DNA of 64,000 nucleotides from Amycolatopsis acidiphila. GTDB lineage: Bacteria > Actinomycetota > Actinomycetes > Mycobacteriales > Pseudonocardiaceae. This document shows positions 16,291 to 33,245 of this stretch, in pieces; position 1 is the first letter of the stretch, and every line of letters begins with the position of its first letter. The stretch is from assembly GCF_021391495.1 (NCBI RefSeq), contig NZ_CP090063.1, forward strand, positions 3,658,001 to 3,722,000. The letters are read 5' to 3'. Made by a program: the position numbers and the translations under genes. The notes under the pieces were generated by a model. It saw only the letters and a list, made by a program, of their open reading frames with translations. It was not told the origin of the DNA and ran no database searches.

Positions 16291-16343
16291 TCCTTCCAGG
16301 TGCGGACCGGCGGGAGCCGGCGCGGCCGGCTCCCGGCGACTGC

Positions 16344-16787: not shown

Positions 16788-16812
16788 GGTTCTCACCTCT
16801 CCTCCGGAAAAT

Positions 16813-17530: not shown

Positions 17531-17770
17531 CACCTTCACGACGATCTGATCGATCAACGACGAACTAACGGCCGATCGGTCATCGCCGGCATCGGGGTCA
17601 GGGACTCCGGTGAGCCTCGGGTCGTACCCTCCCGGCCGACGTTGGCGCGTCGGCCTTGCTCGGAACCTTCAACCGGTCACCATTAGGTACGCCCCTGCCT
17701 GCTGATCCACAGGTATCAAGCGTTGCTCCTGGATTGGACTCCGCGGCGGAAGGCAAGATCGCTCGCCGTC

Positions 17771-18010: not shown

Positions 18011-18670
18011 TTAGTTGCGGGTCAGCAGCGTTCCCATGAGAGCTCGCATCAGCCCCTCGATCGCATTCCTTGCCTGAGTCTCCTGGTTCAGGCTCACCAC
18101 TACGAGCCCCCAGGCCATCGACCGAAACATTGCGAGCAAAGCATGTACGTCGCCTTCATCGATCTCCCCTTGCAGCACGGCGTCATCTCCGATGCGACGC
18201 AATGTTCGATCGACGACCGGGGGAATGTGCAGCGGAACATCGGTGTCTCGCTGATCCACCCATCCGCGCAGGATCATGGACACCCGGCTCTGGCTCATGA
18301 CGCTCGGATCAATCATGGCCTGCAAGAGGCCACGCAGCCGAGTTCGAAGGTCGCCGTGGCGGTTCAGAATATCGTTGAACCCGGTGTAAACCTCCTCGAC
18401 TGCGTACTCGAACGCCGCCTCGTACAGCGAACGCTTGGTCGGGAAATAGTGGTGGAGAGTGCCGGCGGTGAGGTCCGCCGCCGAGGAAACCTCGCGCAGC
18501 GTGGTCCCCTTGAAGCCACGGAGGGAGAACTCCTTGATCGCCGCATCAAGAATGGTGTTCCGCGTATGATCACTGTCACCTTGGGCCGGCCGGCCGGCAC
18601 CCCGCTTCTGGCGCGCCACGCTCTCCCTGGCGTCCGCAGGTGGTGGCACATCACTCTTGGTGCGGCTCAA
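18011..18670 (-). CDS. TetR/AcrR family transcriptional regulator
   Basis: A 219-residue repressor. The N-terminal helix-turn-helix at about residues 38-84 (ILDAAIKEFSLRGFKGTTLREVSSAADLTAGTLHHYF) is classic TetR, preceded by a basic extension. The C-terminal half is the helical ligand-binding domain. It is divergent from the rightward catabolic operon that starts with fprB at 19081, with 410 bp between, so it most likely controls that operon in response to a pathway substrate or CoA thioester. No clear operator palindrome was found in the shared gap. The start at 18670 is the first ATG of the open frame. Confidence 0.88.
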   Translation of the reverse strand: MSRTKSDVPPPADARESVARQKRGAGRPAQGDSDHTRNTILDAAIKEFSLRGFKGTTLREVSSAADLTAGTLHHYFPTKRSLYEAAFEYAVEEVYTGFNDILNRHGDLRTRLRGLLQAMIDPSVMSQSRVSMILRGWVDQRDTDVPLHIPPVVDRTLRRIGDDAVLQGEIDEGDVHALLAMFRSMAWGLVVVSLNQETQARNAIEGLMRALMGTLLTRN

Positions 18671-19080
18671 TCGCGGTCATCCGTTCTGCTCGTGTCGATC
18701 TACCACTGCGCGGTCACCACTATATTCGGGTTCGCCGGGCGCACCCCGCCGGTGTGGCGACGACTATCAGCGGTCTTGCCTGTGGCAATTCCGCCAGCTC
18801 CAGGCACTGGTCCGGCCAGGCGCACGGCTCACGCGTCGTCGCGCAACTCCGCGAGATGGCCTGGTATCGGGCCGGAACAGGCGCAGCTGCTCCCGCGACC
18901 CATCGTGGTACGGCCGGCGATGACGATGTCGCCGACACGGCCGGCGTCGATTCGCCCACCGGTCACCCTGCGCAGGAGCCCGAGTAGCCGATGCGCAACC
19001 CTGTCCCTCGCGAACGACGCTGTTCTGAAGAGGACTGGCGCGCGGTGCTCACCGTTCCCGAACCACGGCGGTGGTAACTG
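18671..19080. other. Divergent regulatory gap, no gene identified
   Basis: These 410 bases separate the TetR regulator from fprB. The plus strand has a 28-codon frame (18990-19076) ending just before the fprB start; it resembles nothing I know and could be a leader or chance. A 10-bp direct repeat ACGGCCGGCG occurs at about 18911 and 18937. Promoters for both directions should lie here, but I cannot place them with confidence. Confidence 0.4.
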
Positions 19081-20784
19081 ATGCCCTACGTCATCACTCA
19101 GAGCTGCTGCAGCGACTCTTCGTGTGTTTCGGCATGCCCCGTCAACTGCATCCATCCGGCTCCGGACGACCCCGACTTCGGCATGACGGAGATGCTGTAC
19201 ATCGACCCCGAACGATGTATCGACTGCGGCGCGTGCGTCGAGGAATGCCCCGTCGACGCCATTGCCGCGGATTGGGAGCTCACCGAGGCGACCGAGCGGT
19301 ACGCGGCGATCAATGCGCACTACTACGACGGCGAGGACAAGTCGCAGTACAGCGCCGAAACCTACATAGCGCGCCGCCGCGTCGTCGACGTGCTCGAGCC
19401 ACCGCGTTTCGCGATAGTCGGCGCTGGACCCGCGGCTTTCTATGCCGCCGAGGAGATCGCCTCGACACGAGGGCTCAACGCACAGATCAACCTTTTCGAG
19501 CAATTGCCGGCGCCAGGTGGGCTGGTTCGCTACGGCGTCGCCCCGGATCATCCCGATACGAAGAAGATCGGACAGACCTTCGCTCGTATCGCCAAGAGTC
19601 CGGGAACCACTATCTACCTCAACGTGGAAGTGGGGTCGGATATCAGTCATGAAGAGTTGCTCGCCCACCATCACGCGGTGCTATACGCGGTTGGCGCCCC
19701 GGCCGATCGAGAGCTGGGCGTCCCGGGGGAGGAGCTGGCCGGAAGCTACGCGGCCAGCGACATCGTCCGCTGGTACAACGGCCATCCGGATTTCGCCGAT
19801 CGCACGTTCGACCTGGCTGCGGACAAGGCCGTGGTGGTCGGCAACGGGAACGTCGCCCTGGACGTGGCAAGGATCATGCTCGCCGGCGCGGAGGAACTGG
19901 GACGGACCGACGTGGCCGATCACGCGCTGGCGGTTCTCACCGGGAGCCCGCTGAGGGAGGTGATCGTCCTCGGTCGTCGCGGCCCGGCACAGGCGGCTTG
20001 CTCGGTCCCGGAGCTCCTCGCACTCACACACCTTCCGGAGGTCGAACTCGGGGTCGATGAACGCGACGCCACACTCGATCCGGTCTCGGCCGAGGCCCTG
20101 CGCAACAGTCCACACGCGACGACGCGGCTCAAAGCGGACATCTTCGCCGAGATCGCCAGGGGAGGACGCTCCGGCAAGGACAGGAGAATGACTTTCAAGT
20201 TCTTTGCCTCCCCGACCGAGATCGTGGGGCACGATCGCGTCGAAGGGCTGCGTGTCGAGCGCACCGAACTCGTCGCTCGCGCGGATGGAAGCCTCGAGCC
20301 GCGCCGGACTGGAATGACCGAGGTCATCGACTGCGGGATCGTCATCCGTTCAGTGGGGTTCCGCGCGGTTGCCTTGCCGGGGCTGCCGTTCGACCAAGAC
20401 CGTGGCGTCGTCCCGAACCGCCGCGGCCGGGTCGTCACCGCCGGTGACCAGATCCTGCCTGGAACCTACGTCGCCGGCTGGGCCAAGCGTGGGCCGACCG
20501 GTGTCATCGGAACCAACAGGAAATGCGCGCGTGAGTCAGTCGAGGCGCTCGTCGAGGACTATCTCGCGGGCAGGCTTGCGGCGCCCTCACACGGAAGCAC
20601 CAAGCTTGGTGAGCTTGTCTCGAGCCGAAAGCCGACCGCGATCACTTTCGAATCGTGGGAAAAGATCGACCGTTATGAACGGTCGCTCGGCCACAGCCAG
20701 GGCCGACCGCGGGTCAAGCTGGCCACGGTGCGGGAAATGCTCGACGTGATCGGCTCCGAGCGCACTATCCGGAGTCGCACATGA
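19081..20784 (+). CDS. fprB: Ferredoxin--NADP reductase FprB (ferredoxin-fused)
   Basis: A 567-residue fusion. Residues 1-65 are a bacterial 7Fe-type ferredoxin (CCSDSSCVSACPVNCIHP and CIDCGACVEECPVDAI). From about 108 it is an adrenodoxin-reductase-like flavoprotein with the FAD motif VGAGPAAFYAAEEI and the NADP motif VVGNGNVALDVARI. The order and length match Mycobacterium tuberculosis FprB, which moves electrons between NADP(H) and its iron-sulfur domain. As first gene of the catabolic operon, in a locus with a two-subunit Rieske oxygenase but no Rieske ferredoxin, it is the best candidate for the oxygenase's electron supply. Its stop overlaps the next start (ATGA). Confidence 0.92.
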   Translation: MPYVITQSCCSDSSCVSACPVNCIHPAPDDPDFGMTEMLYIDPERCIDCGACVEECPVDAIAADWELTEATERYAAINAHYYDGEDKSQYSAETYIARRRVVDVLEPPRFAIVGAGPAAFYAAEEIASTRGLNAQINLFEQLPAPGGLVRYGVAPDHPDTKKIGQTFARIAKSPGTTIYLNVEVGSDISHEELLAHHHAVLYAVGAPADRELGVPGEELAGSYAASDIVRWYNGHPDFADRTFDLAADKAVVVGNGNVALDVARIMLAGAEELGRTDVADHALAVLTGSPLREVIVLGRRGPAQAACSVPELLALTHLPEVELGVDERDATLDPVSAEALRNSPHATTRLKADIFAEIARGGRSGKDRRMTFKFFASPTEIVGHDRVEGLRVERTELVARADGSLEPRRTGMTEVIDCGIVIRSVGFRAVALPGLPFDQDRGVVPNRRGRVVTAGDQILPGTYVAGWAKRGPTGVIGTNRKCARESVEALVEDYLAGRLAAPSHGSTKLGELVSSRKPTAITFESWEKIDRYERSLGHSQGRPRVKLATVREMLDVIGSERTIRSRT

Positions 20785-21959
20785 ACCGGGCCTCAACGAC
20801 AGTCAGTGTCGCGGGTGTCGGGACGGCCGGCTTCGCGCGGCACAGTGGAGTCAGTGCCATTGCGCTCGCCGACATCGCACTGACCGAAGCTCTCGACGAC
20901 TGTGGGCTGTCTCGTGCCTCGGTCGACGGGCTGCTCGTCCACATCGGCTCGCCCCGGGGAGCCGACTACGACACGCTCGCACGAATGCTCGGTCTGTACG
21001 TCGGTTTCGCCGGGCAAACCTGGGCCCACGGGCGCTTCACGGGAACCATCATCCAGCATGCGGTCCTGGCCCTCGCTCACGGTCTCGCCGAGTACGTCGT
21101 GTGCCTTGCCACGTTCCGCAACAGCGTCTGGGGCAGGCACGGCACGACCGGGTTCCCCGACTTCGCCGAAGCGATCCGCGAGGGCGGCGGGCCGCACGCC
21201 GAAACGTTGCCGGCCGGGCTCGCCGCCCCAATCGGTGGCGCGGCCATGGCTGCCCAGCGCTACATGCATGTCTACGGTGTCGATGCCGCGAAACTCGGCG
21301 CAGTCGCGCTGGCCCAGCGGAGGGCGGCGCTGCAGAACCCGCTCGCGGTGATGCGTGAGCCGCTGGATCTGGCCACCTATCTGCGTTCACCGTTCGTCGT
21401 CGAACCCCTTCGCAGACTCGACTGCTCGGTGCCCGTGGACACCGCGGTCGCGGTTGTGCTCACGCGCGCCGACCGTGCCCGGGACATGCCGCGCCCGCCG
21501 GTCGATGTGCTCGGATTCCAGGGCCTGTCCGCCGGCCCGGACGAGTTCGTGTTCGGGCCGCCCGGACTGGGCGTCCATCAGGTCTCGGCCGTGAACCGCC
21601 GGCCGGAGGGTGCCGCCCAGGCGGTCTTTCGGACCACCGGGCTCACACCCGCGGACATCGACACGCTCCACTGCTACGACGGGTTCTCGCCACAGGTCCT
21701 GTGGACTCTTGAGCGATTCGGTTTCTGCCCGGCAGGTGAATCGGCGGACTGGGTGCAGGGCGGCCGGATCGAGATCGACGGAGAACTTCCCGTGAACACA
21801 AGCGGCGGCCATCTGTCCGAAGGGCACTCCAACGGCTGGGGGCAGACCATCGAAATCGTACGACAGTTGCGCGGGGAGGCCGGACCGCGGCAGGTCAACG
21901 ACTGTCAGACGGCCATGTGGGCCACGACGTTCGGGGATGCGATCATCTATGGCCGTTGA
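20781..21959 (+). CDS. Thiolase-fold protein (lipid-transfer/acetyl-CoA acetyltransferase-like)
   Basis: A 392-residue thiolase-superfamily protein. The C-terminal half has HCYDGFSPQVLWTLERFGF and NTSGGHLSEGHSNGWG, matching the second-half His motif of SCP2-type thiolases. The N-terminal nucleophilic Cys motif is not recognisable (a Phe/Arg stretch replaces it), as in Ltp-type non-thiolase enzymes. The next gene encodes a Zn-ribbon/OB-fold (DUF35) protein, and such pairs (for example Ltp2 with a DUF35 partner in steroid side-chain degradation) act as retro-aldolases on CoA thioesters. A similar C-C cleaving role is inferred here. The start overlaps the fprB stop. Confidence 0.8.
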   Translation: MNRASTTVSVAGVGTAGFARHSGVSAIALADIALTEALDDCGLSRASVDGLLVHIGSPRGADYDTLARMLGLYVGFAGQTWAHGRFTGTIIQHAVLALAHGLAEYVVCLATFRNSVWGRHGTTGFPDFAEAIREGGGPHAETLPAGLAAPIGGAAMAAQRYMHVYGVDAAKLGAVALAQRRAALQNPLAVMREPLDLATYLRSPFVVEPLRRLDCSVPVDTAVAVVLTRADRARDMPRPPVDVLGFQGLSAGPDEFVFGPPGLGVHQVSAVNRRPEGAAQAVFRTTGLTPADIDTLHCYDGFSPQVLWTLERFGFCPAGESADWVQGGRIEIDGELPVNTSGGHLSEGHSNGWGQTIEIVRQLRGEAGPRQVNDCQTAMWATTFGDAIIYGR

Positions 21960-22404
21960 CGCCCACACCGTGTCAGAGTTTCCGGGAACCGGCGCGGCGA
22001 GCGACCTGATGCCGTCCAGGACGGACGACACCGAGGCGTTCTATTCCGCTCTGGACAACGACGGCCGGCTACTGCTCCAGCTCTGCAGGGCCTGTAACCG
22101 GCACCGAACGCCAACAGTGCCGGTGTGCCCGCACTGCGGCGCCCGGGAATTCACCTGGACAGCGGCGGCGGGAACCGGCCGGCTGTACAGCTGGGTGCGT
22201 TACCACCGTCCCTATCTTTCCCCGTTCGCGTCATTGACACCCTATTCGGTCGGCCTGGTGGAACTCGCCGAAGGGCCGCGAATGTTCGGACGTCTCGTCG
22301 GCATTCCGTCTCCGGTCATCGGTATGCGCGTCCGAACGGTCTTGGAGCGCTGGTCTGACGGAGTGGTCGTGCCCGCGTTCGGTGCCGCTGAGGAGGGTGA
22401 GTGA
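21949..22404 (+). CDS. Zn-ribbon/OB-fold (DUF35-type) acyl-CoA-binding partner protein
   Basis: About 151 residues. A rubredoxin-like zinc ribbon has two CxxC pairs (LCRACNRHRTPTVPVCPHCG, roughly residues 42-61). An OB-fold follows with GRLYSWVRYHRPY. DUF35/ChsH2-like proteins bind acyl-CoA and dock on thiolase-fold proteins to form the active complex. The overlap with the preceding thiolase-like gene supports a stoichiometric complex. ATG at 21949 is preferred over the in-frame ATG at 21937; both lie within the upstream coding region. Its stop overlaps the next GTG start (GTGA). Confidence 0.82.
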   Translation: MAVDAHTVSEFPGTGAASDLMPSRTDDTEAFYSALDNDGRLLLQLCRACNRHRTPTVPVCPHCGAREFTWTAAAGTGRLYSWVRYHRPYLSPFASLTPYSVGLVELAEGPRMFGRLVGIPSPVIGMRVRTVLERWSDGVVVPAFGAAEEGE

Positions 22405-23447
22405 CAGTGATGCGTGCCGCGATGTTGCGCGCACCCGGACCGCCTGAGCAGTTCGAGGTCACCGAGGTCGAGATACCCCGGTTCGGCCGCGACGAGGTAC
22501 TGGTGCAGGTCAGAGCATGTGGTGTGTCGTCGCGGGATGTCGTCGAACGCAACGGCACCTACCGGCGCGACGTGACGTTCCCCCTGGTGATCGGCCTGGA
22601 GATCAGTGGGACGGTCGTTGAATGCGGCCAGGATGTGCCCGACCTCCGGCCGGGCGATCACGTGTGCAGCAAGGCCTTCAGCAGTTGCGGGCAATGCCGG
22701 CTGTGCCGGACCGGACGGGAGACGACGTGCTCGCGCAGGCGGCCGGTGCGCGGCGGCTACGCCGAGTACGTCGTGCTGCCGTGGGATGCGCTCGTCCGGG
22801 TCCCGTCCGGACTGCCGTTCGAGGAGACCTGCGGCCTTGGGCCGGCCGGCGGCGTCGCGCTCAACGCGGTCCGCGACGTCGCACGCGTCACGGTCGGAGA
22901 GACTGTTCTGATCACCGGCGCCACGGGGGGAGTCGGCTGGATGGCGCTGCAGATCGCGCGGCTGTCCGGTGCCAGGGTCATCGCGGCCACCCGCGACCCC
23001 GACCGGCGATCCTCCCTCCTCGAGGCGGGCGCCGACGAGGTGATCGTGATCGACGGCCCTGACTTCTCACCGCAGGTGCGGACGCTCACCGACGGAGAAG
23101 GTGTCGACGTCGTGGTCGACACGGTCGGCAGCCCGGTCTTCGGCTCCTGCTTCAACAGCCTCGCCGTGCACGGTCGTTACGCCCTCGTCGGCCAGCTCCT
23201 CGGCGAGGAGATCTCGATCAACCCGGCGCGGATCTTCTTCAAGCGCGCGAGCCTGCTCGGGGTCGGCAGTGTGAGCCGTGCGCAACTGGCCGACGTCGTC
23301 GACCTGGCCGCGCGCGGCCAGATCAGACCACGGATCGCGTGCACGCTCCCGCTCGATGACGTCGTGCGGGCACACCACCTCGTCGAGCGGAGCGCGTTGT
23401 TCGGCCGAGTGGTGTTGGCGCCGTCCCCGTCAGCTTCGACAGAATGA
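22401..23447 (+). CDS. Zinc-type alcohol dehydrogenase / MDR family oxidoreductase
   Basis: A 348-residue medium-chain dehydrogenase/reductase. A GroES-like N-terminal domain (VRACGVSSRDVVERNG, GLEISGTVVE) carries a structural-zinc-like lobe with four Cys (SCGQCRLCRTGRETTC). The Rossmann motif is VLITGATGGVGWMALQIA near residue 168. The catalytic-zinc Cys is present (ACGVSSRD), but the usual zinc His is shifted to GLEISG, so a zinc-independent quinone-reductase-like mechanism is possible. Within the operon it could oxidise a hydroxyl or reduce an enone or enoyl-CoA intermediate. It starts with GTG in a 4-base overlap with the DUF35-type gene. Confidence 0.84.
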   Translation: MTVMRAAMLRAPGPPEQFEVTEVEIPRFGRDEVLVQVRACGVSSRDVVERNGTYRRDVTFPLVIGLEISGTVVECGQDVPDLRPGDHVCSKAFSSCGQCRLCRTGRETTCSRRRPVRGGYAEYVVLPWDALVRVPSGLPFEETCGLGPAGGVALNAVRDVARVTVGETVLITGATGGVGWMALQIARLSGARVIAATRDPDRRSSLLEAGADEVIVIDGPDFSPQVRTLTDGEGVDVVVDTVGSPVFGSCFNSLAVHGRYALVGQLLGEEISINPARIFFKRASLLGVGSVSRAQLADVVDLAARGQIRPRIACTLPLDDVVRAHHLVERSALFGRVVLAPSPSASTE

Positions 23448-23460
23448 GTGGAACTTGACC

Positions 23461-24249
23461 GTGAATGCCACAAGCCGACTTCAACTGATCGCCGACCGGG
23501 TGACGTCCGCACTGACTCCCGTGATGCGGGAGCTGCGGATCACGGAGGACGAACTGCACGCCGCAGGCGACTTCCTCGACAGGGTCGGCCAGGCAGGCAT
23601 GTGCAAGAGCCTTCTCGACATCGCCTTCGCCATGACCGCGATCGACACCCGGCGCCACGGCATCCCCGGAACCAGAACCAACCTCGAAGGACCGGTGTAC
23701 CGGCCCGGTGCGCCAACCCGGGCCACCAACAACCTCATCGAACGTGACCTGTCGCCGGACGCCGATCTGCTGGTCCTCTCGGGCCAGGTGACCGACGCCG
23801 TCACCGGCCGCCCGATGAGCGGTGTCGAGCTGGACTTCTGGCACGCCGACGAGCACGGACGCTACGACTACGACGGCAACCATCTGCGCGGCGTGGTGCA
23901 CAGCGGCCAGGACGGGCGCTACCGGGTGGACACGATCATGCCGGTGGACTACGCCGAGCATCTGAACGATCCCATCGGTGAGCTGCTCGCCATGCTCGAT
24001 CGGGACGGCTACCGGGCCGCGCACATCCATCTCAAGGTGCGTGTCCGGGGCGTCGAAAGGCTCACCACCCAGCTGTTTCGCGGCGACTCCCCGCACTTGG
24101 ACCAGGACTACGTCATCGGCGCGGTCAGCGAGGACCTCGTGGTCGAGCCGAGGCTGGTCGGCACCGTGGACGGCCACCGCCAATACGCGATGAGCTTCGA
24201 CATCGCTGTGCCACCCCTGCCCGCCGACCACCTCGTGGAGGGATCGTGA
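23461..24249 (+). CDS. Intradiol ring-cleavage dioxygenase (catechol/hydroxyquinol 1,2-dioxygenase family)
   Basis: A 262-residue non-heme Fe(III) dioxygenase that opens catechol-type rings between the two hydroxyls. The N-terminal helical dioxygenase_N domain covers about residues 8-65. The catalytic domain shows the expected ligands Y135 (GRYDYDG), Y164 (MPVDYAEH), H188 and H190 (AAHIHLKV). LDFWHADEHG and DTIMP are family landmarks. The fused N-terminal domain is typical of catechol 1,2- and hydroxyquinol 1,2-dioxygenases rather than protocatechuate 3,4-dioxygenase subunits. The start is GTG 23461; no ATG is available in frame. It presumably acts on the diol made by the Rieske dioxygenase and SDR further along. 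Confidence 0.88.
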   Translation: MNATSRLQLIADRVTSALTPVMRELRITEDELHAAGDFLDRVGQAGMCKSLLDIAFAMTAIDTRRHGIPGTRTNLEGPVYRPGAPTRATNNLIERDLSPDADLLVLSGQVTDAVTGRPMSGVELDFWHADEHGRYDYDGNHLRGVVHSGQDGRYRVDTIMPVDYAEHLNDPIGELLAMLDRDGYRAAHIHLKVRVRGVERLTTQLFRGDSPHLDQDYVIGAVSEDLVVEPRLVGTVDGHRQYAMSFDIAVPPLPADHLVEGS

Positions 24250-25163
24250 TGGACGGAACGTTCCGACCCAACGGACATCGGCCGGTACAGGGCCGGCAGC
24301 GGCTCTCCGACCTGCTTGCCGCCGGCCGTATCTTCGCCGCGCCGGGCGCCTACGATCCGTTCACGGCGCGCATCCTCACCGATCTGGGATTTCCGGCGGT
24401 CTACCTCGGCGGCAATGCCCTGGCGTTGCAGCTGTGCCTCGGCCAGCCGTTGGCGACGTTGACCGAATCGGTGGACGGCGCGGACAAGATCATCCGGGCG
24501 ATTGACGCGCCGCTGATCGTGGACGCCGGCGCTGGATTCGGCGATGCCGCACACACGTTCCGTACCGCCGGCGAGTTCGAGCGCATCGGCGCGGCGGCCA
24601 TCCACATCGACGATCAGCCCTATCCCAAGCAGATCGGCTACCACTACGGACACGGCGAGCTGCTGGAAACCGAGCTGGTCGCCGACAAGCTCGAAGCCGC
24701 GATCGCCGCCCGCCGTGATCCGGAGTTCCGGGTGATCGCCCGAACCGACGCACTACGCGTGACGGGCGACCTCAACGCCACGGTCGCCCGCTGCCAGGCG
24801 TACGCGGAAGCGGGCGCCGACATGCTCATGGTGCTCGACCTCACCCCGCAACAGTGTGCGCGGATAGCTCCCGATCTGGGCGGCAAGCCGCTCGTGTGGA
24901 TCGGCGGCGCATCAGATCCCGGACCACACCTCGACGAACTCGCCGCAGCCGGATTCGCGGTCGCCGTCTACCCGTTCACCACCATCGCCGCGGTGGTCGC
25001 CGCGGTCCGTGCGACCTGGCAGCCGCTGCGCGAACGCGGCCAGCTGGAGCAGCCCGCGGACCTGATCGCGGACGCCCGCGCTCGCGTCCTCGATCTCGCC
25101 GGGCTGGGCCGTTACCACGACTTCGAGGCGAAGAACCGAGCAACGAAGGAAGCCAGGCAGTGA
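24246..25163 (+). CDS. Isocitrate lyase/PEP mutase superfamily protein
   Basis: A 305-residue (beta/alpha)8 protein of the PEPM/ICL superfamily (FAAPGAYDPFTARILTDLGFPAVYLGG at the start, VIARTDALRVTGDL near residue 164). Two active-site deviations are visible. The KKCGH loop of true lyases is replaced by KQIGYHYGHGE, which has no catalytic Cys. The metal-binding D-A-D of typical members reads VDAGAGFGD. Isocitrate or methylisocitrate lyase activity is therefore unlikely; oxaloacetate/oxopropionate decarboxylase or hydrolase-type chemistry on a ring-cleavage product is more plausible. GTG 24246 overlaps the previous stop; an ATG follows directly at 24249. Confidence 0.8.
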   Translation: MMDGTFRPNGHRPVQGRQRLSDLLAAGRIFAAPGAYDPFTARILTDLGFPAVYLGGNALALQLCLGQPLATLTESVDGADKIIRAIDAPLIVDAGAGFGDAAHTFRTAGEFERIGAAAIHIDDQPYPKQIGYHYGHGELLETELVADKLEAAIAARRDPEFRVIARTDALRVTGDLNATVARCQAYAEAGADMLMVLDLTPQQCARIAPDLGGKPLVWIGGASDPGPHLDELAAAGFAVAVYPFTTIAAVVAAVRATWQPLRERGQLEQPADLIADARARVLDLAGLGRYHDFEAKNRATKEARQ

Positions 25164-26770
25164 ACACACCGCGAACTCTCGCCGGAGCAGTCGAGAACAC
25201 CGCGGCGGCCGCGCCCGGCCGTCCGGCGCTCCTTTATCACGGGACGACGTTCAGCTACCACGACCTGCACGCGGAATCCTGCCGGGCAGCGAAGGCGTTG
25301 CTCGGCCTCGGGGTGCGACGCGGGGACCGCGTGGGCGTGCTGCTCGGCAATCAGCCGGAATGGGTCGTCATCTGCCTGGGCGCGGCGCAGATCGGTGCGG
25401 TTCTGGTGCCGCTCAACACGTGGTACCAGTCCCGGGAGATCGAGTGGACCCTGCGCCACTGCGGCGTCACGGTACTCGTCTCGGGCAGCCGGTTCCTGAA
25501 ACGTGAGTTCGACCGCCTTCTCACCGACCTGATTCCCGAACTGGCCGCGGGTGAGCCCGGTGAGCTGCGCAGCACGCGTTTGCCTCGGCTGCGAGCGGTC
25601 GCCATGACCGGGGACCCCGCCCCTGGGGCGTTCAGCTGGCCGGGCTTCCTGTCGGTCGGGGCCTCGGTGACGGATGCGGATCTAGAGAAAGCGGCCGGAT
25701 CCGTGACGGCCGACGATGACATGTTCGTCATCTACACCTCCGGAAGCACCGCCGATCCCAAGGGGGTGCGCCTCACCCACGGCGGGCTGCTCGGCAACGG
25801 CGCCGAGGTCGCCAGAAGGCGGTGGATCGACGCCGAGGACCGGATATGGCTCGGCGCGCCGTTGTTCTACGGACTGGGCGCCGCCAACGCGCTGCCTGTC
25901 GCGCTGGCGGCGGGGGCGGGTCTGGTGCTGCAGGACTATTTCGACCCCGGCGTCGCCATCCGCACCATCCGGTCCACCTCTGCGACGACGTACTACGGGA
26001 CCGGGAACATGACGCGCGCGATCCTGGACCATCCGACCTTCTCGCCCGGCAAGGTGGCCACCCTCGAGAAGGGCACTGCCGGCATAAGCCGCCATTACAA
26101 GTCCATGACTCTTACCGAACTCGGTGTTCGTCTCGCCACCCCGGCGTACGGCCTCACCGAGACCTACGGGCACATCACCGGCGGACTTCCGGACGACCCC
26201 CTCGATGTCAAGCTCGACACGGACGGTGCCCCGTTGCCCGGTGTCGAGGTTCAGATCGTCGATCCGGTCACCCGCAGGCCGCTGCCGCCCGGTGAGCGAG
26301 GACTCATCCTGCTCCAGGGTCGGGTCACCCCCGGGTATTTCGACAACCCGGACGAAACCGCGAAAGCCCTGCGGCCAGACGGTTTCTTCGACACCGGCGA
26401 CCTCGGGCACCTCGACAGTGCGGGCAGGCTGGTGTTCCACTCCCGGATCAAGGAGGTGCTCAAGAGCAACGGCGTCACGATTTCCCCAGCCGAGATCGAG
26501 CAACTGCTGGTCAGCCATCCGGACGTGACGGACGCCTGTGTGGTCGGCGTCCCTCATCCCGACCGCGGCGAGCTGATCGTCGCGTTCGTGACCGCCAAGA
26601 CTCCGTTGAAGGAAACAACACTTCGAGACTACGTTCGCGAGCGGGCCGCCTCATTCAAGGTGCCCCACCATGTCCTGGTTCGCGACAAGGACGACCTGCC
26701 CCGGCTCGCCAGCGGAAAGATCGCCAAGCTGCGGCTGGCCGAAATGGCGATCGCCGAGCTGACGGGTTGA
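25160..26770 (+). CDS. AMP-dependent acyl-CoA synthetase/ligase
   Basis: A 536-residue adenylate-forming enzyme that activates a carboxylic acid as acyl-AMP and then CoA thioester. Motifs are the P-loop YTSGSTADPKG (192-202), YGLTETYGH (about 330), the hinge FDTGDLGHLDSAGRL (about 410), and the C-terminal catalytic Lys in SGKIAKLRL. GTG at 25160 overlaps the previous stop. It closes the first half of the operon, 130 bp before the Rieske genes. It may activate an aromatic acid or ring-cleavage product, supplying CoA esters to the thiolase-like/OB-fold pair. Substrate specificity cannot be read from sequence alone. Confidence 0.9.
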   Translation: MNTPRTLAGAVENTAAAAPGRPALLYHGTTFSYHDLHAESCRAAKALLGLGVRRGDRVGVLLGNQPEWVVICLGAAQIGAVLVPLNTWYQSREIEWTLRHCGVTVLVSGSRFLKREFDRLLTDLIPELAAGEPGELRSTRLPRLRAVAMTGDPAPGAFSWPGFLSVGASVTDADLEKAAGSVTADDDMFVIYTSGSTADPKGVRLTHGGLLGNGAEVARRRWIDAEDRIWLGAPLFYGLGAANALPVALAAGAGLVLQDYFDPGVAIRTIRSTSATTYYGTGNMTRAILDHPTFSPGKVATLEKGTAGISRHYKSMTLTELGVRLATPAYGLTETYGHITGGLPDDPLDVKLDTDGAPLPGVEVQIVDPVTRRPLPPGERGLILLQGRVTPGYFDNPDETAKALRPDGFFDTGDLGHLDSAGRLVFHSRIKEVLKSNGVTISPAEIEQLLVSHPDVTDACVVGVPHPDRGELIVAFVTAKTPLKETTLRDYVRERAASFKVPHHVLVRDKDDLPRLASGKIAKLRLAEMAIAELTG

Positions 26771-26900
26771 GCGTGGGCTCACGGTCAAACGAACGTGACG
26801 TTCGCCCGCTCGCGCCAGCTAAGAGCTGAACCCGACAGCCGCTTTCTGCGAGGGTCGGCGTTTCACGTCCGCCAACAACGATGGAAACACGGGTGCAACG

Positions 26901-28256
26901 ATGCTCGACGAAGAGTCAATTGTCGCCACGGTACGCAAAGGAATGCTGCCGGCCCACATCTACAACGACCCCGCGGTCTTCGCCGCTGAGCAGAGGAGCA
27001 TATTTTCCAGGAACTGGCTCTTCCTGGCGCATGAGTCCGAGGTCCCGGACCCCGGTGACTACGTGGTGCGCGGAGTGCTCGACGACTCGTTCATCGTGGC
27101 TCGCGGAGAGGACGGCGACGTTCGGGCACTCTTCAACATGTGCCTGCACCGCGGCATGCAGGTGTGCCGGGCCGAATTCGGGAACACATCACACTTCCGC
27201 TGCCCCTATCACGGGTGGACCTACAAGAATGATGGCAGGCTCATCGGCCTGCCGTTCTTCAAGGAAGCCTACGGCGGAGATCGCGGGTTCCGCCGCGACG
27301 AGCATTCCCTGCTGCCGGCGCCTGCCACGCAGGTCATCAACGGGATGATCTTCGTAAGTCTCGACCCGTCGACGCCCGCGTTGCCGGAGCGGCTCGGCGG
27401 CTTCGGCGACTACCTGGACTTCTACATGAAGCCCGGGCCGGGTGGTGTCGAACTACGCGGCCCCCAGCGCTGGCGGCTGCCGGCCAACTGGAAGATCGGC
27501 GCCGAGAACTTCGCCGGTGACACCTACCACACCCCGCACACGCATCTCAGCGTGTCGGAGATAGGTCTCATGCCCGACGCCAGAGGAGGTAACCGGAAGG
27601 GCGGCGCGATGTACTTCGCCGACGGCGGCGGCGGGGCCACCTTCCCGCTCGGTCCGGGTGACTTCCGCCAGCGACTGCGCACCATCGGGTATCCGGACGA
27701 TCTGATCGACCGTCGTGAGTCCAGCTGGCCCGCCAGCATCAGGACGTTGATCGGGGAGAACGGGCACATTCCCTCCGCCGCCACCATCTTCCCCAACCTC
27801 AGCTTCCTGCATCTGTGGGCGAAGATCAGCGAGACGCGGACCGCGCCATTCACCACGCTCCGGCTTTGGCAGCCCATTTCCGAGCGGGAGACGGAGGTCC
27901 TGTCGTGGTTCGTGGTCGAGAAGGAAGCTCCCGAGGATTTCAAGAAGGCCTCCTACAAGGCGTACCAGATGTGCTTCGGGTCGAGCGGCATGTTCGAGCA
28001 GGACGACATGGAGAACTGGTCGTCGATCACGCGTGTCGCCGGCGGGGCGATGGCTCGCCGGCTCGAACTGAACAACCGTATGGGGCTTCTCGAGAACAAC
28101 GAGCCGGTGGCGCGCCCACTCACCGAGTTCGCCGGCCCTGGTGTGGCTTATGGTGGCTTCGGCGAGTTCAACCAGCGACGTTGGTTCGAACTGTGGTGCC
28201 GGGACATCGCAGACGGCCGGCCGCCGGCGAAGGAAGCCGTCGGGGAGGGCCGGTGA
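26901..28256 (+). CDS. Aromatic ring-hydroxylating dioxygenase, alpha subunit (Rieske)
   Basis: A 451-residue catalytic subunit. The Rieske [2Fe-2S] ligands are C81, H83, C101 and H104 (CLHRGMQVC, CPYHGW). The mononuclear iron site is in ENFAGDTYHTPHTH (bridging D207, H210, H215), with the third Asp probably in FEQDDMENW. It forms an (alpha-beta)n oxygenase with the next gene and inserts O2 into an aromatic ring to give a cis-dihydrodiol. ATG at 26901 is used; 130 bp separate it from the ligase, with a small CGAACG-TGA-CGTTCG hairpin at 26790 that might mark a second promoter or processing site. Size and motifs fit the benzoate/phthalate/biphenyl-type class. Confidence 0.93.
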   Translation: MLDEESIVATVRKGMLPAHIYNDPAVFAAEQRSIFSRNWLFLAHESEVPDPGDYVVRGVLDDSFIVARGEDGDVRALFNMCLHRGMQVCRAEFGNTSHFRCPYHGWTYKNDGRLIGLPFFKEAYGGDRGFRRDEHSLLPAPATQVINGMIFVSLDPSTPALPERLGGFGDYLDFYMKPGPGGVELRGPQRWRLPANWKIGAENFAGDTYHTPHTHLSVSEIGLMPDARGGNRKGGAMYFADGGGGATFPLGPGDFRQRLRTIGYPDDLIDRRESSWPASIRTLIGENGHIPSAATIFPNLSFLHLWAKISETRTAPFTTLRLWQPISERETEVLSWFVVEKEAPEDFKKASYKAYQMCFGSSGMFEQDDMENWSSITRVAGGAMARRLELNNRMGLLENNEPVARPLTEFAGPGVAYGGFGEFNQRRWFELWCRDIADGRPPAKEAVGEGR

Positions 28257-28257
28257 C

Positions 28258-28809
28258 ATGAGCCTGCACCAGTCAGAGCCGACGCGAGTCGGTACGCCCT
28301 TGTCCTTCGGGGATCCGGCCCATCATGCCGCCCACCAGTTCTTGGTGGAGGAGGCCCATGTCCTGGACAGCCGGGACCTCGACGGCTGGCTTCGGATGCT
28401 CTGCCACGACGTCACGTACCGGGCTCCGGTCAGGGTCACGACCGCACGTGGTGCGGCGTTCGACGAGCTGGAGACGGCCAGCCATTTCGACGAGGACTAC
28501 TACTCGCTTCGGAAGAGGGTCGAGCGGTTCAGCACCGAACACGCATGGACGGAGGACCCGCCCTCACGGACCCGGCACTTCGTCAGCAACGTGCGATGCT
28601 TCCACGTCGACGAGCCCGGCCTGCTGGCCGTGGACTCGTACCTTCTCCTGTTCCGGAGTCGCGGTGATGTTCGCCCACCGGACCTCGTTTCGGCAGGTCG
28701 TCATGATCTGCTGCGCGGCGACCCGGAGGTGGGCTACCAACTCGCCCGCCGCAGGATCACGCTCGACGAGTCGGTACTTCGCACCCAGAACCTGGCCGTG
28801 TTTCTGTAG
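28258..28809 (+). CDS. Aromatic ring-hydroxylating dioxygenase, beta subunit
   Basis: A 183-residue structural subunit with the cone-shaped NTF2-like fold. FLVEEAHVLDSRDLDGWLRML at the start and PPSRTRHFVSNVRCF in the middle match the family. The length is typical. ATG at 28258 lies 1 bp after the alpha stop, so the subunits are made together. The beta subunit has no metal site; it stabilises the hexamer and can tune substrate choice. Confidence 0.9.
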   Translation: MSLHQSEPTRVGTPLSFGDPAHHAAHQFLVEEAHVLDSRDLDGWLRMLCHDVTYRAPVRVTTARGAAFDELETASHFDEDYYSLRKRVERFSTEHAWTEDPPSRTRHFVSNVRCFHVDEPGLLAVDSYLLLFRSRGDVRPPDLVSAGRHDLLRGDPEVGYQLARRRITLDESVLRTQNLAVFL

Positions 28810-28843
28810 ATCGCGTTGCGCGCGCTACCGCAAGGGGAAAACG

Positions 28844-29080
28844 ATGAGTGAAAACGAAGCCAACCGGCACGTCAGTCCGGTGATCGAGATGGCCAACGAG
28901 TTCGGCTCGGTGGTCCTCACCAAGATTCGGACCCACAATGGCGAGCGCCTGCGGATCCGCTCTCCGGAACTAGGGCGTTCGATAGACCTCTGCCCGCTGG
29001 AACTGGAGAGCCTGACCTGGCAGACACCCGAGGTCTTCTCCGGGTTCCTGCAGACGCCTTTCGGCGTGATGGAGGACTGA
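28844..29080 (+). CDS. Small protein of the dioxygenase operon, function unknown
   Basis: A 78-residue soluble protein between the beta subunit and the dihydrodiol dehydrogenase, with CAAGGGGAAAACG as ribosome-binding stretch and 4 bp to the next start. It has two beta-rich stretches (VVLTKIRTHNGERLRIRS and GRSIDLCPLELESLTWQ) and an acidic end. I have an impression of similar ~80-residue proteins beside actinobacterial Rieske dioxygenase genes, sometimes loosely named dihydrodiol dehydrogenase, but it has no Rossmann fold and cannot be one. It may be an assembly or regulatory factor. Confidence 0.65.
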   Translation: MSENEANRHVSPVIEMANEFGSVVLTKIRTHNGERLRIRSPELGRSIDLCPLELESLTWQTPEVFSGFLQTPFGVMED

Positions 29081-29084
29081 GGCG

Positions 29085-29867
29085 ATGGGATGGCTTTCAG
29101 GTCAACGCGCGCTCGTCGTCGGCGGCGGCTCTGGCATCGGGCGGGCCGTGTTGTCGTCCTTCCTGGAGGAAGGAGCCCAGGTCGCGACGATGGAACGCGA
29201 TCCGGACAAGTGCGCGGCGCTAAGGACCGAACTCCCGGAGTGCACGGTGAGCCAGGGCGATGCGACGACCCTGACCGACACCAGGCGTGCGGTCCAAGCC
29301 GCCGCGGCAGGGCTCGGTGGCCTGGACTGCCTGGTGAGCTGTGTCGGGGTGTTCGACTTCTACCGCGGCTTGGCGGAGCTCACGGAGGAGCAACTGTCGG
29401 CCGGCTTCGACGAGATCTTCCGGACCAACGTGCTGAGTCAACTGCTGTCTGTGAAGGTGGCGTTGCCGCTGTTGCGCGCATCCCGCGGCTCGGTGATCCT
29501 GACGCTCTCCTCGTCGGCGTTCTATCCAGGGCGCGGTGGGATCCTGTACGTCGCCTCGAAGTTCGCCTTGCGCGGCGCCGTGATCTCCCTCGCGCACGAA
29601 CTTGCCCCCGACGTCCGGGTCAACGGGGTCGCGCCGGGCGGCACGACCAACACCCGGCTGCGCGGACTGGCCAGCCTGGGCGAGGCCGAGCACGAGGTGG
29701 TGGACGGCCCCGGGCGAACGAAGGACCTTGAGGAGCTGACCCCGCTCCGGTTGGCGATGTCGTCGCGGGATCACACGGGTAGCTACGTCTTCCTGGCCTC
29801 CGCACGTGCACGGGGAATCACGGGCACCTTTGTGCACCCTGATGGTGGAATGTCGGTCCGCTGTTGA
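29085..29867 (+). CDS. SDR family cis-dihydrodiol dehydrogenase-like
   Basis: A 260-residue classical short-chain dehydrogenase. The cofactor motif is VVGGGSGIGRAV (12-23), with an acidic residue after beta-2 (MERD) pointing to NAD+. The catalytic Ser is in LTLSSSAF, and the YVASK Tyr-Lys pair is near residues 151-155. The C-terminal HPDGGMSV is also typical. Next to Rieske dioxygenase subunits, the likely reaction is oxidation of the cis-dihydrodiol to a catechol (BphB/BenD role). It is the last gene of the rightward operon, 150 bp before the AraC regulator. Confidence 0.88.
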   Translation: MGWLSGQRALVVGGGSGIGRAVLSSFLEEGAQVATMERDPDKCAALRTELPECTVSQGDATTLTDTRRAVQAAAAGLGGLDCLVSCVGVFDFYRGLAELTEEQLSAGFDEIFRTNVLSQLLSVKVALPLLRASRGSVILTLSSSAFYPGRGGILYVASKFALRGAVISLAHELAPDVRVNGVAPGGTTNTRLRGLASLGEAEHEVVDGPGRTKDLEELTPLRLAMSSRDHTGSYVFLASARARGITGTFVHPDGGMSVRC

Positions 29868-30017
29868 CCGGGTTCCGTCCAGGGCAACAGCGGGTGCAGG
29901 AAGAGAGGACTCGCGCAGGGTTCTCCACGAACTCAACGCGCGCCGTTTCGGTGCGCCGTCGCAGAACGGTACGACCTCGGGCGACCCAGTAGTCGGACGG
30001 GAGATGGACCATTGGAC

Positions 30018-31043
30018 ATGAATGCGGGTTCCGGTGGGAGCGTCCGTTTTGGCATGAACGAGCCGCTGCGGACGCGGCCGCTCCTGGACAGCCGGGACGT
30101 TGAGCATGCTCATGCGGAGATCACCGGGCTGTTCAGCCCGCACGAGCTTATTCCGATCGGCCTGCGCAGCGGGTTCCACGCCCGCGCCAACGTGGCGACG
30201 CTGAACCGCGTTCGGTTGATCTACCTGTCGCTCGGCAGCGAGGTCGTCGTGCGGCCCGCGCCGTTGACCGATTACTACGCGATCAACATCGTGATCGGCG
30301 GTGCCGCCGACGTGCGGCGCGGCAGGCGCGCCATCGCCGTGGAAGGATCGACCGCGGGAGTCGTGCTGACCCCGGACTCGACGATCGACATGCGGTGGTC
30401 GGCCGACTGCCGGCACCTATCGGTGGTCGTCGGCCGGTCGCATCTTGAAGAAGCGTTCTGGTCCTTGTGGGGCGACGTGCCCCGCCCCGAGGACTTCCCG
30501 ATCGGGCTCGACCTGCGGATGGGCCGGGTCGCGAGCTGGATCCGGTTGGTCCGCTGGGCGGTTGCCGACATCGACCAGGGCAGCGGCCTGGCCGCGAACC
30601 CGCTCGCCGCCAAGCAGGTCGAGGACCTCCTCGTGCACGGGTTCGTCGCGGCTCAGGGCCGGCGGTCCGGGCCGCAGCCCTCTGTCCGTGCCATGACGCA
30701 GGTGGCCGTGCGAGACGCGCGGGAGTACATCGAATCGCATGCGGCCGACGCGATCTCCGTCAGCGATGTCGCGCGCGCGGCCGGCGTGAGCGTGCGGACC
30801 TTGCAGGAGTGCTTCAAGCGGCACGTCGGCATGACACCGATGACCTACCTGCGCGACGTGCGTCTCGATCGTGTCCACGGCGCTCTGCGGTCCGCCGACC
30901 CGCGCACCGCGGTTACGGTGACCGAAGTCGCCCTGAGCTGGGGCTTCGGTCACCTGCCGCGATTCGCCGCCGCTTACCGCCGGCGGTTCGGCCAGCTGCC
31001 GTCCGAAACGCTGCGGCGCGGTGTTTCCCGCGCTAACCGCTGA
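30018..31043 (+). CDS. AraC family transcriptional regulator
   Basis: A 341-residue activator. Residues about 45-180 form a cupin-like AraC-binding domain (VVVRPAPLTDYYAINIVIGG), and the C-terminal 110 residues hold the two HTH motifs (ISVSDVARAAGVSVRTLQECFKRHVGMTPMTYLRDVRL and VTEVALSWGFGHLPRFAAAYRRRFG). It resembles the NphR/PobR-like group found with aromatic oxygenases. ATG 30018 is used; a TTG at 30012 is possible. It lies on the same strand after the SDR and converges on the carboxylesterase with an 11-bp overlap of 3' ends. It probably activates the Rieske half of the cluster. Confidence 0.87.
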   Translation: MNAGSGGSVRFGMNEPLRTRPLLDSRDVEHAHAEITGLFSPHELIPIGLRSGFHARANVATLNRVRLIYLSLGSEVVVRPAPLTDYYAINIVIGGAADVRRGRRAIAVEGSTAGVVLTPDSTIDMRWSADCRHLSVVVGRSHLEEAFWSLWGDVPRPEDFPIGLDLRMGRVASWIRLVRWAVADIDQGSGLAANPLAAKQVEDLLVHGFVAAQGRRSGPQPSVRAMTQVAVRDAREYIESHAADAISVSDVARAAGVSVRTLQECFKRHVGMTPMTYLRDVRLDRVHGALRSADPRTAVTVTEVALSWGFGHLPRFAAAYRRRFGQLPSETLRRGVSRANR

Positions 31044-32628
31044 TGCCGTCCCACAGATCGGCGTGATGGCCCTTCCCGAAGCCCTCGAGCACGTGGCACT
31101 CCGGGATGGCGAGACGTATGACGTTCTCCCGCGCCGGGTCGTAGACGGGCCACTGCGGCAGCGCGGAGGACTCCGGACTGGGCGTGCCGGTACGCGCGAA
31201 GGTGGTCCAGTAGCCGACCATCTCGGCCGCCAGCTTCGCGTCCGCCTCGTCGTGAGGGACCACGCAACCGCCGCCACCACGGAAGTTCGGGAACAGGTAC
31301 TGCAGGTCCTGTGTGTGCGCCGCCCCGTAGGGGAAGGACACGGGAGGCCACGGGGTGGACGTGCAGGCCACGTCGAACTCGTAGGCGTACACGGCATCAA
31401 CGTATTCGCGCAACATGCGGTTGGACTGACGGTTGCCGAGGTTGATGAAGCCGCAGTCGCCGATCGCGGCCGACATCGCCTCGCTCGCGGAGGCGTAGTC
31501 GGCAGGCGGATAGGCGGAGATGATGTCGTCGATGCGATCGGCTGGAATCGTTCGGCCCAGCATGATGGGCGGCAGGTTGGTCAGGGCGTCCCTCATGATC
31601 GCGGCGTAGGCCTCGGCCGGGATCGGGGTCCCCGTGCTGAGCTCGATCAGTCCCTGGAACCAGTTGAACTCCGAGCGAGTCGTCCCGTTGATGGTCGGCA
31701 CACGGTTGAAGCGACCCGACGTGAACAGGTCCACCATGGGTTCGGGGATGACCGTGCCGTCGGCGGTCTGCCCGATCTCGTACTTGCCGATGCCGAAAGT
31801 CTTGTCCGGGAGCAGGTTCGCGGCGAGCAGGTCGGATGCCGGGATCGCCCGCAGGTCGTCGGCGGTCGCCCCTGGCGCGCCGGTGTCCCTGATGAGGTCC
31901 AGCCCGTTCTGCTCGACGTGCACGGTCAGGGGGGTCCGGAGGAGGGGAGCGCCCGTACCGCTCTGGATGATCGCCTTGTGGAACAGACCGCGCGAACCCG
32001 GCGACGCGATGTTGCACCACACGCTGATCCCGCCGGCCGACTCGCCGAAGATCGTCACGTTGTCCGGGTCTCCACCGAACCCGGCGATGTTGTCCTGGAC
32101 CCAGCGCAGGGCGGCCTGCTGATCCATGATGCCGTAGTTGCCGATCTCGTGGTCCTCCGCGTTGATCGCGGGGTGGGAGAAGAACCCGAAGACATTGACC
32201 CGGTAGTTGAACGACACGAACACGACCTGGCCGTCCTTGACGAGCGCCGACGGGTCGTAGCCGGTGCTACCGCCGATGAACAACCCGCCGCCCGGGATCC
32301 ACACCATCACCGGTAGCTTCGCGCCCTCGTCCACGCCGGCCGGGGCGTACACGTTCAGGTACAGGCAGTCCTCGGTGTTGCTGGAGAACCCGAAGCCGAC
32401 GAACGACTTGTTGTTCTGCGCGCAGACATTGCCGTAGGCGAACGCATCGCGGGGTAGCCGCCAGCCCTCCGTTTCGACGGGCGGCCGCCAACGCAGCCGA
32501 CCGACGGGCGCGGCTGCGTAGGGAATGCCAAGGAATTGATGCATACCGTCGATGACCAGGCCACGAACAGGACCCCTGCCGGTCGGCGCAGTCAGGGTCG
32601 GCGCCAGCTCCCAGTACGTTCGTTCCAC
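31033..32628 (-). CDS. Type-B carboxylesterase
   Basis: A 531-residue alpha/beta hydrolase. The oxyanion loop is MVWIPGGGLFIGG, the nucleophile Ser is in IFGESAGG, and the likely catalytic His is in PYGAAHTQDLQYLF; EDCLYLNVYAP is the second family signature. No signal peptide is visible, so it is probably cytosolic. GTG at 32628 with AGGAGAG five bases upstream is the real start; the frame stays open for another 135 codons into a methylase remnant. Lying beside an aromatic dioxygenase operon, it may release an aromatic acid from an ester such as a phthalate- or benzoate-type ester. Confidence 0.9.
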   Translation of the reverse strand: MERTYWELAPTLTAPTGRGPVRGLVIDGMHQFLGIPYAAAPVGRLRWRPPVETEGWRLPRDAFAYGNVCAQNNKSFVGFGFSSNTEDCLYLNVYAPAGVDEGAKLPVMVWIPGGGLFIGGSTGYDPSALVKDGQVVFVSFNYRVNVFGFFSHPAINAEDHEIGNYGIMDQQAALRWVQDNIAGFGGDPDNVTIFGESAGGISVWCNIASPGSRGLFHKAIIQSGTGAPLLRTPLTVHVEQNGLDLIRDTGAPGATADDLRAIPASDLLAANLLPDKTFGIGKYEIGQTADGTVIPEPMVDLFTSGRFNRVPTINGTTRSEFNWFQGLIELSTGTPIPAEAYAAIMRDALTNLPPIMLGRTIPADRIDDIISAYPPADYASASEAMSAAIGDCGFINLGNRQSNRMLREYVDAVYAYEFDVACTSTPWPPVSFPYGAAHTQDLQYLFPNFRGGGGCVVPHDEADAKLAAEMVGYWTTFARTGTPSPESSALPQWPVYDPARENVIRLAIPECHVLEGFGKGHHADLWDGISG

Positions 32629-32754
32629 GCTTTCTCTCCTCTTCGAGATGAAAGATGACTCACCCGTGGGCGGGTGCTCGGAGCGTAAGATCCGGCCGCA
32701 GGTTCGGCGATCCGCTAAGCGCACGTCATCCGGAAAGCGCGAGCATGCCTGGTG

Positions 32755-33245
32755 CTTGTTTGGCTGGGTAGCTCGCTCGTGCCGCCGTCCACGCCTGAGC
32801 GCAGCGAAGGTCAGTCCGAACGCGAGCCGGCCGGCGCGCAGCGCCTCGGTCAGCACGGTGACCGCGCCGCAGCCGGGATCGAGAACGAGGTCGCCGGGGC
32901 GGGTGTAGGTGGCGATCGCGTGAGCGGCGATGGCGGGCGGAATCCGCTTGGTGTCGGTCTCGGTGCCGGGCACACAGCCGGCATCGCGCAGCTGCGCGAG
33001 CGGGTCACGCTGCCCGGTCGGCCAGACCGACATCGGCGGCTCCTCCCCCCGGCGGTTGGGGGAGCGGTCAAGGCGACGTGGGACGGTCGGTCATCGGAGG
33101 TCTCCTCCCCGTCGACGGCGAGGTTTTGGGCCGGCTGGCGGGTGAACACCAAGAGGTCGTCGCGAACCGGCACGCGCAGCAGAGCGATGCGATCGAGGTA
33201 GCGCAGTCCCGGCGTTGCGCGCGGCGTGCACCGGCGAGCCAGCGG
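32755..33245 (-). pseudogene. Remnant of a TRM11-like/N4-N6 DNA methyltransferase
   Basis: In one frame RYLDRIALLRVPVRDDLLVF (about 33205-33145) matches the segment before the C-terminal domain of actinobacterial TRM11-like DNA methylases. In another frame SVWPTGQRDPLAQL, IAAHAIATYTRPGDLVLDPGCG and VLTEALRAGRLAFGLT (33033-32790) give the SAM-binding motif I region, with the usual catalytic PPY part missing. The frame change lies near 33035 and the end is lost. The frame runs on, without a stop, into the esterase gene. Confidence 0.7.

Follow-up and report, generated by a model that had tools for sequence, protein, structure and literature searches.

A 64-kb stretch of Amycolatopsis acidiphila DNA (contig NZ_CP090063.1, positions 3,658,001 to 3,722,000; hereafter the window) carries a candidate aromatic catabolic island, in which 12 genes, from a TetR regulator gene to a dihydrodiol dehydrogenase (SDR) gene, bring together a two-subunit Rieske oxygenase and a coenzyme A (CoA)-dependent enzyme set. 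In our best explanation, in which our confidence is about even, the island is a cassette whose oxygenase front end is interchangeable and whose CoA-dependent core of six genes is conserved. The core encodes a thiolase-like protein, its OB-fold partner, an MDR dehydrogenase/reductase, an intradiol dioxygenase, a PEP mutase/isocitrate lyase-fold (PEPM) protein, and an acyl-CoA ligase. A catechol made by the oxygenase would undergo intradiol cleavage, CoA ligation, and retro-aldol cleavage, an order that we hold with the same even confidence. The enzyme families are all known ones; their conserved combination appears to be new, and it was not recognised as described in open-access papers, judged by title and the start of the abstract. 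Profile scans with Pfam and NCBIfam covered 20 proteins between 13.5 and 38.7 kb of the window and confirmed, each at its place, all genes named in an initial annotation made from the letters alone. The view taken there of a linked unit with an unusual enzyme set also holds, since the island is unlike the four phthalate-type operons compared.

The order of the genes is more than chance, because 12 genes keep it in Pseudonocardia sp. SCN 73-27 (locus L050), where everything from TetR to SDR is present in identical order with 52–76% identity. The values are 60% for TetR, 52% for FprB, 76% for the thiolase-like protein, 56% for OB, 71% for MDR, 73% for the intradiol dioxygenase, 64% for PEPM, 68% for the ligase, 74% and 71% for Rieske alpha and beta, 71% for a small open reading frame (ORF), and 75% for SDR. 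The mixture of enzymes also occurs outside the window genome: the part from the thiolase-like gene to the ligase is a wider module shared by L050 and 11 other loci.

These loci were found by scanning genomes with aligned sequences of the intradiol clade; of 479 relatives, the best 80 loci were kept. Among these 80, 13 loci (L050–L062) had 44–73% intradiol identity over nearly the full length, and the remaining relatives were at or below 36%, save one partial segment at 42%. MDR, intradiol, PEPM, and ligase genes are consecutive in 12 of the 13 loci (MDR is cut in L061 and the ligase in L058); judging by their titles, we take the 11 core loci other than L050 to be proteobacterial. Nine of the 12 have a thiolase-like gene, which lies upstream in L052, L053, and L062 and downstream in L055, L056, L057, L059, and L060. 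It was unmatched in L051, whose contig begins in or near OB, in L058, where 1.4 kb upstream was covered and the contig ends inside the ligase, and in L061, where 2.4 kb downstream was covered and the contig begins inside MDR. The exception is L054 (Pigmentiphaga), an intradiol gene without the rest of the core, beside a PrpB-type gene (prpB cut-off passed), amidohydrolase, and Ldh_2 genes.

The genes around the core vary. Among the window and L050–L062, matches to FprB, Rieske beta, and the small ORF were restricted to the window and L050; Rieske alpha and SDR had matches of 27–33% at most among L051–L062. An NtaA/DmoA-family FMN monooxygenase gene immediately precedes MDR in L055, L056, and L060 (L056 by clustering), and Rieske alpha-type genes without a beta match lie near the core in L052, L053, and L057 (L052 by clustering). 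Because the adjoining oxygenases differ between loci, the core appears to be a lower module that they have in common, and the front end seems exchangeable. Downstream extras are a TPP enzyme in L050 and, in L055, L056, and L060, an acyl-CoA dehydrogenase and a 1-deoxypentalenic-acid-hydroxylase-like gene, presumably of PhyH type. In L060 (Brevundimonas), the hydroxylase-like gene and a CitE/RipC-like citramalyl-CoA lyase (237 bits, cut-off 375) occupy 15643–17571 downstream of the cassette, which may point to a branched C5 acid as an intermediate.

Co-occurrence was also seen in metagenomes, with equal size of the longest contig as the proxy for a shared contig. The matches used were all 114 for intradiol, the best 119 of 353 for PEPM, and the best 119 of 2827 for thiolase. 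Shared contigs numbered 14 for intradiol and PEPM, eight for intradiol and thiolase, and eight for PEPM and thiolase; one shared value (1382) leaves no room for both genes and is probably chance.

In 150 genomes of the window's own family, intradiol matches (E ≤ 1e-30) outside the window genome reached just 32–38% in seven genomes, and PEPM matches (E ≤ 1e-40) just 37–44% in 21 genomes; all were taken as paralogues and rejected as cassette relatives. The island is rare among relatives and was probably acquired, because its own family gives no closer intradiol or PEPM matches than these. Among 394 genomes of the actinomycete class, matches at E ≤ 1e-70 were confined to the window genome and G399, which was rejected as a cassette carrier: its protein is related at 36%, and a tblastn search of the surrounding 19.9 kb detected no further cassette genes.

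Sister thiolase-like/OB genes (46–50%) lie beside a ligase in L044–L046, with no intradiol or PEPM match. Plasmid pDK3 of Rhodococcus sp. DK17 (L026) likewise has sister thiolase-like/OB genes and a ligase, with no intradiol or PEPM gene annotated; it additionally carries cyclase, LLM, and MmgE/PrpD genes, and is a related, also unexplained CoA cluster.

The case for C-C cleavage lies in the thiolase-like protein. Its closest solved relative is 6ok1, a lipid-transfer protein (183 bits), which we take to be TcLtp2. It also resembles the Ltp2/Sal steroid side-chain aldolases in its DUF35/OB partner and in the tyrosine of a YDxF motif. According to an excerpt of PMC12329534, the base of TcLtp2 is the Tyr of YDHF, and CtSal uses the Tyr and Cys of YDCY. 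The window protein has YDGF; YD is kept in 9/9 aligned cassette copies, and Y299 and D300 do not vary across 36 homologues. In an alignment with two PcaF-type thiolases (L136 and L137; the comparison left out L135), the window protein has Thr at the first catalytic Cys and no Cys at the second. Because the YD-motif Tyr is kept and both thiolase Cys are missing, the residues of the window protein favour retro-aldol cleavage over thiolysis.

The PEPM protein has the fold of the methylisocitrate lyase/PEP mutase superfamily and differs from it in the metal-ligand and Cys positions. The PD-loop Asp is deleted, the second Asp of DxD is Gly, the Glu of the ED motif is Asp, and the KxCG lyase Cys is absent, with a new YHxG motif. 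PrpB of L054 and paralogues L040 and L042, used as controls, keep the metal ligands and Cys (paralogues L039, L041, and L043 were left out). The KxCG Cys is missing in 66/66 sequences of the PEPM clade; the second DxD Asp is Gly in 56, Asp in nine, and Asn in one, and the ED-motif Glu is Asp in 53 and Glu in 13. The metal site is described as altered rather than lost because nine of the 66 keep the second Asp, and by the same-contig proxy some of these nine are probably cassette members. A canonical methylisocitrate lyase role was rejected on the score (163 bits, cut-off 354) and the active-site changes, and an ordinary isocitrate-lyase-type role is doubtful on the same residues.

A second PEPM-fold variant, with VDAGAGFG and YHRG motifs and LEDQ kept, occurs in G399 (L143, 9590–10585), adjoining MmgE/PrpD-like and TPP-enzyme genes read from the sequence. 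Because of this variant, the PEPM subfamily may extend beyond the cassette.

The intradiol dioxygenase has the PF00775 domain and residues Y137, Y166, H190, and H192, invariant in 40 homologues, which we take to be the Tyr2/His2 iron ligands. It falls below the cut-offs of the named catechol and chlorocatechol equivalogs (129.6 vs 359 and 119.7 vs 404 bits). Intradiol ring cleavage is common to the cluster and the beta-ketoadipate (catechol ortho) pathway. Muconate cycloisomerase, muconolactone isomerase, enol-lactonase, and CoA transferase were unrecognised among the window cluster proteins, and the cluster has a CoA ligase instead. The initial annotation was right that no muconate cycloisomerase or beta-ketoadipate gene accompanies the cluster, as none was recognised in the 20 proteins scanned, but such genes occur elsewhere in the genome. 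At 5.33 Mb, catA (451 bits, cut-off passed) lies beside a cycloisomerase-like gene (199 bits, cut-off 335), and pcaD passes its cut-off at 6.44 Mb. Because catA is present, plain catechol probably does not require the cassette enzyme in this genome.

Seven cassette genomes (those of L050, L053, L055, L056, L057, L059, and L060; completeness figures not given) were searched for the same functions. In four, L055, L056, L057, and L059, the single PF00775 match lies inside the cassette locus; elsewhere there were three matches each in the L053 and L060 genomes and seven in the L050 genome. These four genomes have no plausible muconate cycloisomerase, the best scores being 59, 20, and 44 bits for L055, L056, and L057 and none for L059. 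Of the others, L060 gave none, L053 reached 142 bits, and the L050 genome alone passed the cut-off (335), which is strict in that the catA-linked gene of the window genome also falls below it. The pcaD cut-off was passed in the L050, L053, and window genomes and in none of the other five cassette genomes. The pcaF cut-off was passed in the L057 and L053 genomes, and a pcaF-like gene of 536 bits (cut-off 597) lies inside locus L056, so later beta-ketoadipate steps are partly present in some cassette genomes.

In the proposed pathway, electrons from FprB would feed the phthalate-3,4-dioxygenase-like Rieske enzyme of the window and L050, giving a cis-diol of an aromatic acid, which SDR would re-aromatise to a substituted catechol. 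The intradiol dioxygenase would open this catechol between the hydroxyls to a muconate-type diacid, and the ligase would form the CoA thioester of the ring-opened product. MDR may catalyse C=C reduction or aldehyde interconversion, and PEPM an undefined step on a polycarboxylate, probably not an ordinary isocitrate-lyase-type reaction. The thiolase-like/OB pair would then split a beta-hydroxyacyl-CoA by retro-aldol cleavage, releasing an acyl-CoA together with an aldehyde or ketone. The oxygenases of the other loci would feed the same core. The gene set alone is not decisive for the order; for the window, we favour ligation and aldol cleavage after ring opening over removal of a side chain first, because SDR and a phthalate-like oxygenase are present. 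The new peripheral pathway proposed in the initial annotation stands in part: CoA-dependent C-C cleavage is plausible because the thiolase-like protein has aldolase-type residues. The release of the aromatic acid from an ester was dropped, since the esterase lies on the opposite strand and neither it nor the AraC gene was matched in L050, with 3.9 kb beyond SDR covered.

Several observations weigh against this pathway. The window protein lacks Tyr344, the second acid residue of Ltp2, as well as His296 of Ltp2, and has Gly for the motif His or Cys (Cys304 in CtSal); at the Tyr344 position the window, L050, L052, and L053 have His, and L055–L057, L059, and L060 have Gln, as does CtSal. Thiolysis is possible for the clade because L052 and L053 (2/9 aligned cassette copies) keep the thiolase nucleophile Cys and the window protein keeps the thiolase GH histidine. 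An enoyl-CoA hydratase, needed by this order, was unrecognised in the profile scans of the window cluster. Among the 12 genes kept in L050, FprB has the lowest identity (52%), and the 130-bp gap before Rieske alpha may divide the locus into two transcripts. The window product could also drain to the beta-ketoadipate route, because catA, its cycloisomerase-like neighbour, and pcaD are present.

A bolder version, which we find possible though somewhat doubtful, makes the core a complete, undescribed replacement of the beta-ketoadipate pathway: a CoA route from intradiol products to central metabolism via ligation, reduction, and retro-aldol cleavage, shared by Actinomycetota and Proteobacteria behind different oxygenases, in which a PEPM-fold enzyme without the lyase Cys and part of the metal site performs a new reaction. 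If true, ortho cleavage would gain a second fate beside muconolactone, one used by bacteria whose genomes yielded no second intradiol gene in the search. Metagenome genes named "protocatechuate 3,4-dioxygenase beta subunit", "methylisocitrate lyase", and "acetyl-CoA acetyltransferase" would acquire a function, and there would be a test case for PEP mutase fold chemistry with an altered metal site.

The steps could instead run as in ibuprofen degradation, which we judge unlikely: the ligase would form an aryl-alkanoyl-CoA, the Rieske enzyme would hydroxylate the ring at the side-chain carbon, the thiolase-like/OB pair would strip an acyl-CoA, and the intradiol dioxygenase would open the resulting catechol. 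A ligase, a two-subunit Rieske oxygenase, and thiolase-like and OB genes are also clustered in ipfABDEF of Rhizorhabdus wittichii plasmid pIBU218, IpfD has the same Tyr motif (YDAF), and L054 has the intradiol gene but neither a ligase nor a thiolase-like gene, as would suit separable steps. Identities are low, however (IpfD 35%, IpfF 27%, and IpfA 33% over 216 aa), and orthology was rejected. Rieske alpha is nearest to phthalate dioxygenase, the cluster has an SDR suited to a normal cis-diol, and PEPM and MDR, neither annotated beside ipf, are left unexplained. According to an excerpt of PMC9195938, a catechol 2,3-dioxygenase belongs to the lower pathway of ibuprofen degradation.

A variant phthalate-type pathway, with Rieske and SDR acting on a phthalate analogue and the core handling the polycarboxylate from intradiol cleavage, would fit the 596-bit match of Rieske alpha to PDB entry 9jp5 (phthalate 3,4-dioxygenase; next PDB entry 362 bits) and the PEPM fold, which usually binds di- or tricarboxylates. 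It is improbable, as a phthalate-type operon exists elsewhere in the window genome, at 5.39 Mb (L049, 10209–15600), with Rieske alpha, beta, small ORF, SDR, ferredoxin, reductase, and class II aldolase genes, the last three assigned by reading translations. The alpha subunit of this operon is 78–83% identical to three plasmid-borne enzymes, and the four share 76–85% among themselves. Window alpha stands outside this clade, at 58–59% to all four and 73–74% to L050, with 58 positions at which it differs from the four in common with L050; among the remaining 11 cassette loci, alpha is at 30–33% or unmatched. By these comparisons the window Rieske is a sister, divergent paralogue of phthalate 3,4-dioxygenase, probably with another substrate, because the phthalate copy of the same genome is the one near the plasmid enzymes.

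A plain phthalate operon was rejected on the same ground and because its ferredoxin, reductase, and decarboxylase-type aldolase, annotated in Arthrobacter keyseri pRE1 (L025) and present at 5.39 Mb, were unrecognised among the window cluster genes. The window shares the alpha-beta-small ORF order with these operons, followed by SDR in the 5.39-Mb copy, but adjoins a CoA module. Judged by domain content, FprB may be the electron donor that replaces the missing ferredoxin and reductase; the name FprB is our assumption, and its FdxA and GltD-type NCBIfam matches are below cut-off. The small ORF lies between Rieske beta and SDR in three modules of the window genome (window 28844–29080, L049 12265–12579, and L003 661–864); the window copy is 45% and 49% identical to the other two, and had no Pfam or NCBIfam match at 0.001 (reference 28832–29077).

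That the island is two adjacent operons with no functional link, the Rieske module coming from a phthalate-type operon, is very improbable: the 130-bp gap and the alpha-beta-small ORF-SDR modules elsewhere in the genome without the core would suit it, but the idea is weakened because both halves are syntenic in L050 (Rieske half 71–75%), and the Rieske half, without a recognised ferredoxin or reductase, finds FprB in the other half.

The features of the island are listed below. From fprB to SDR (19081–29867), the genes form two tight co-directional runs separated by 130 bp. In the first (19081 to 26770), each junction is an overlap or 7 nt: −4, −23 (−11 from the inner OB start), −4, 7, −4, and −4 nt. 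In the second, alpha and beta are 1 nt apart and the small ORF and SDR 4 nt; beta to the small ORF is 34 nt to ATG 28844 or 22 nt to the reference start 28832.

Features of the island (window positions; scores from Pfam and NCBIfam profiles)
Feature	Position	Strand	Remarks
TetR regulator	18011..18670	-	divergent from cluster; PF00440 6e-15; 60% TetR at same L050 position
FprB-type Fe-S ferredoxin (N-terminal)/flavin NAD(P) reductase fusion	19081..20784	+	Fer4, Pyr_redox_2
Thiolase-like (Ltp2/Sal-type) putative retro-aldolase	20781..21959	+	best PDB relative 6ok1
Zinc-ribbon/OB-fold partner subunit (DUF35, ChsH2-C type)	21949..22404	+	PF01796 1e-17, PF12172 4e-9; ATG 21949, alternative ORF start 21937
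MDR zinc dehydrogenase/reductase	22401..23447	+	PF00107, PF08240; top NCBIfam score 221 bits, below cut-off 349
Intradiol ring-cleavage dioxygenase, separate clade	23455..24249	+	PF00775 8e-31
PEP mutase/isocitrate lyase-fold protein, without lyase Cys, metal-ligand positions altered	24246..25163	+	
AMP-forming acyl-CoA ligase	25160..26770	+	PF00501, PF13193 (scanned on longer ORF 24854-26767); GTG start overlaps PEPM stop
Rieske oxygenase alpha subunit	26901..28256	+	PF00355, PF00848
Rieske oxygenase beta subunit	28258..28809	+	PF00866; NF007479 190 bits, cut-off 145 passed
Small conserved 78-aa protein of Rieske module	28844..29080	+	absent from initial annotation
cis-Dihydrodiol dehydrogenase, SDR, HcaB type	29085..29867	+	NF004849 (PRK06200) 346 bits, cut-off 330 passed
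AraC-family regulator, adjacent, not conserved with cluster	30012..31043	+	PF14525, PF12833
Carboxylesterase, adjacent, not conserved with cluster	31033..32628	-	PF00135 2e-108 in ORF 31033-33033; end 32628 as set in initial annotation

ORF 28325–29080 was rejected as the beta subunit because it is in the wrong frame. A promoter/terminator scan gave signal at chance level, and Rfam gave zero matches within the window. The in-frame stretch before the carboxylesterase (32713–33033, minus strand) has a weak likeness to a DNA methylase (N6_N4_Mtase, E 0.0009) and is perhaps a remnant. An unusual tRNA-His with anticodon ATG was called by ARAGORN at 61022–61112 (minus strand), possibly falsely. Adjoining the esterase, a FAD aromatic hydroxylase (33972–35471, plus strand; PRK06184, 586 bits, cut-off 476) could be another aromatic function at the edge of the island.

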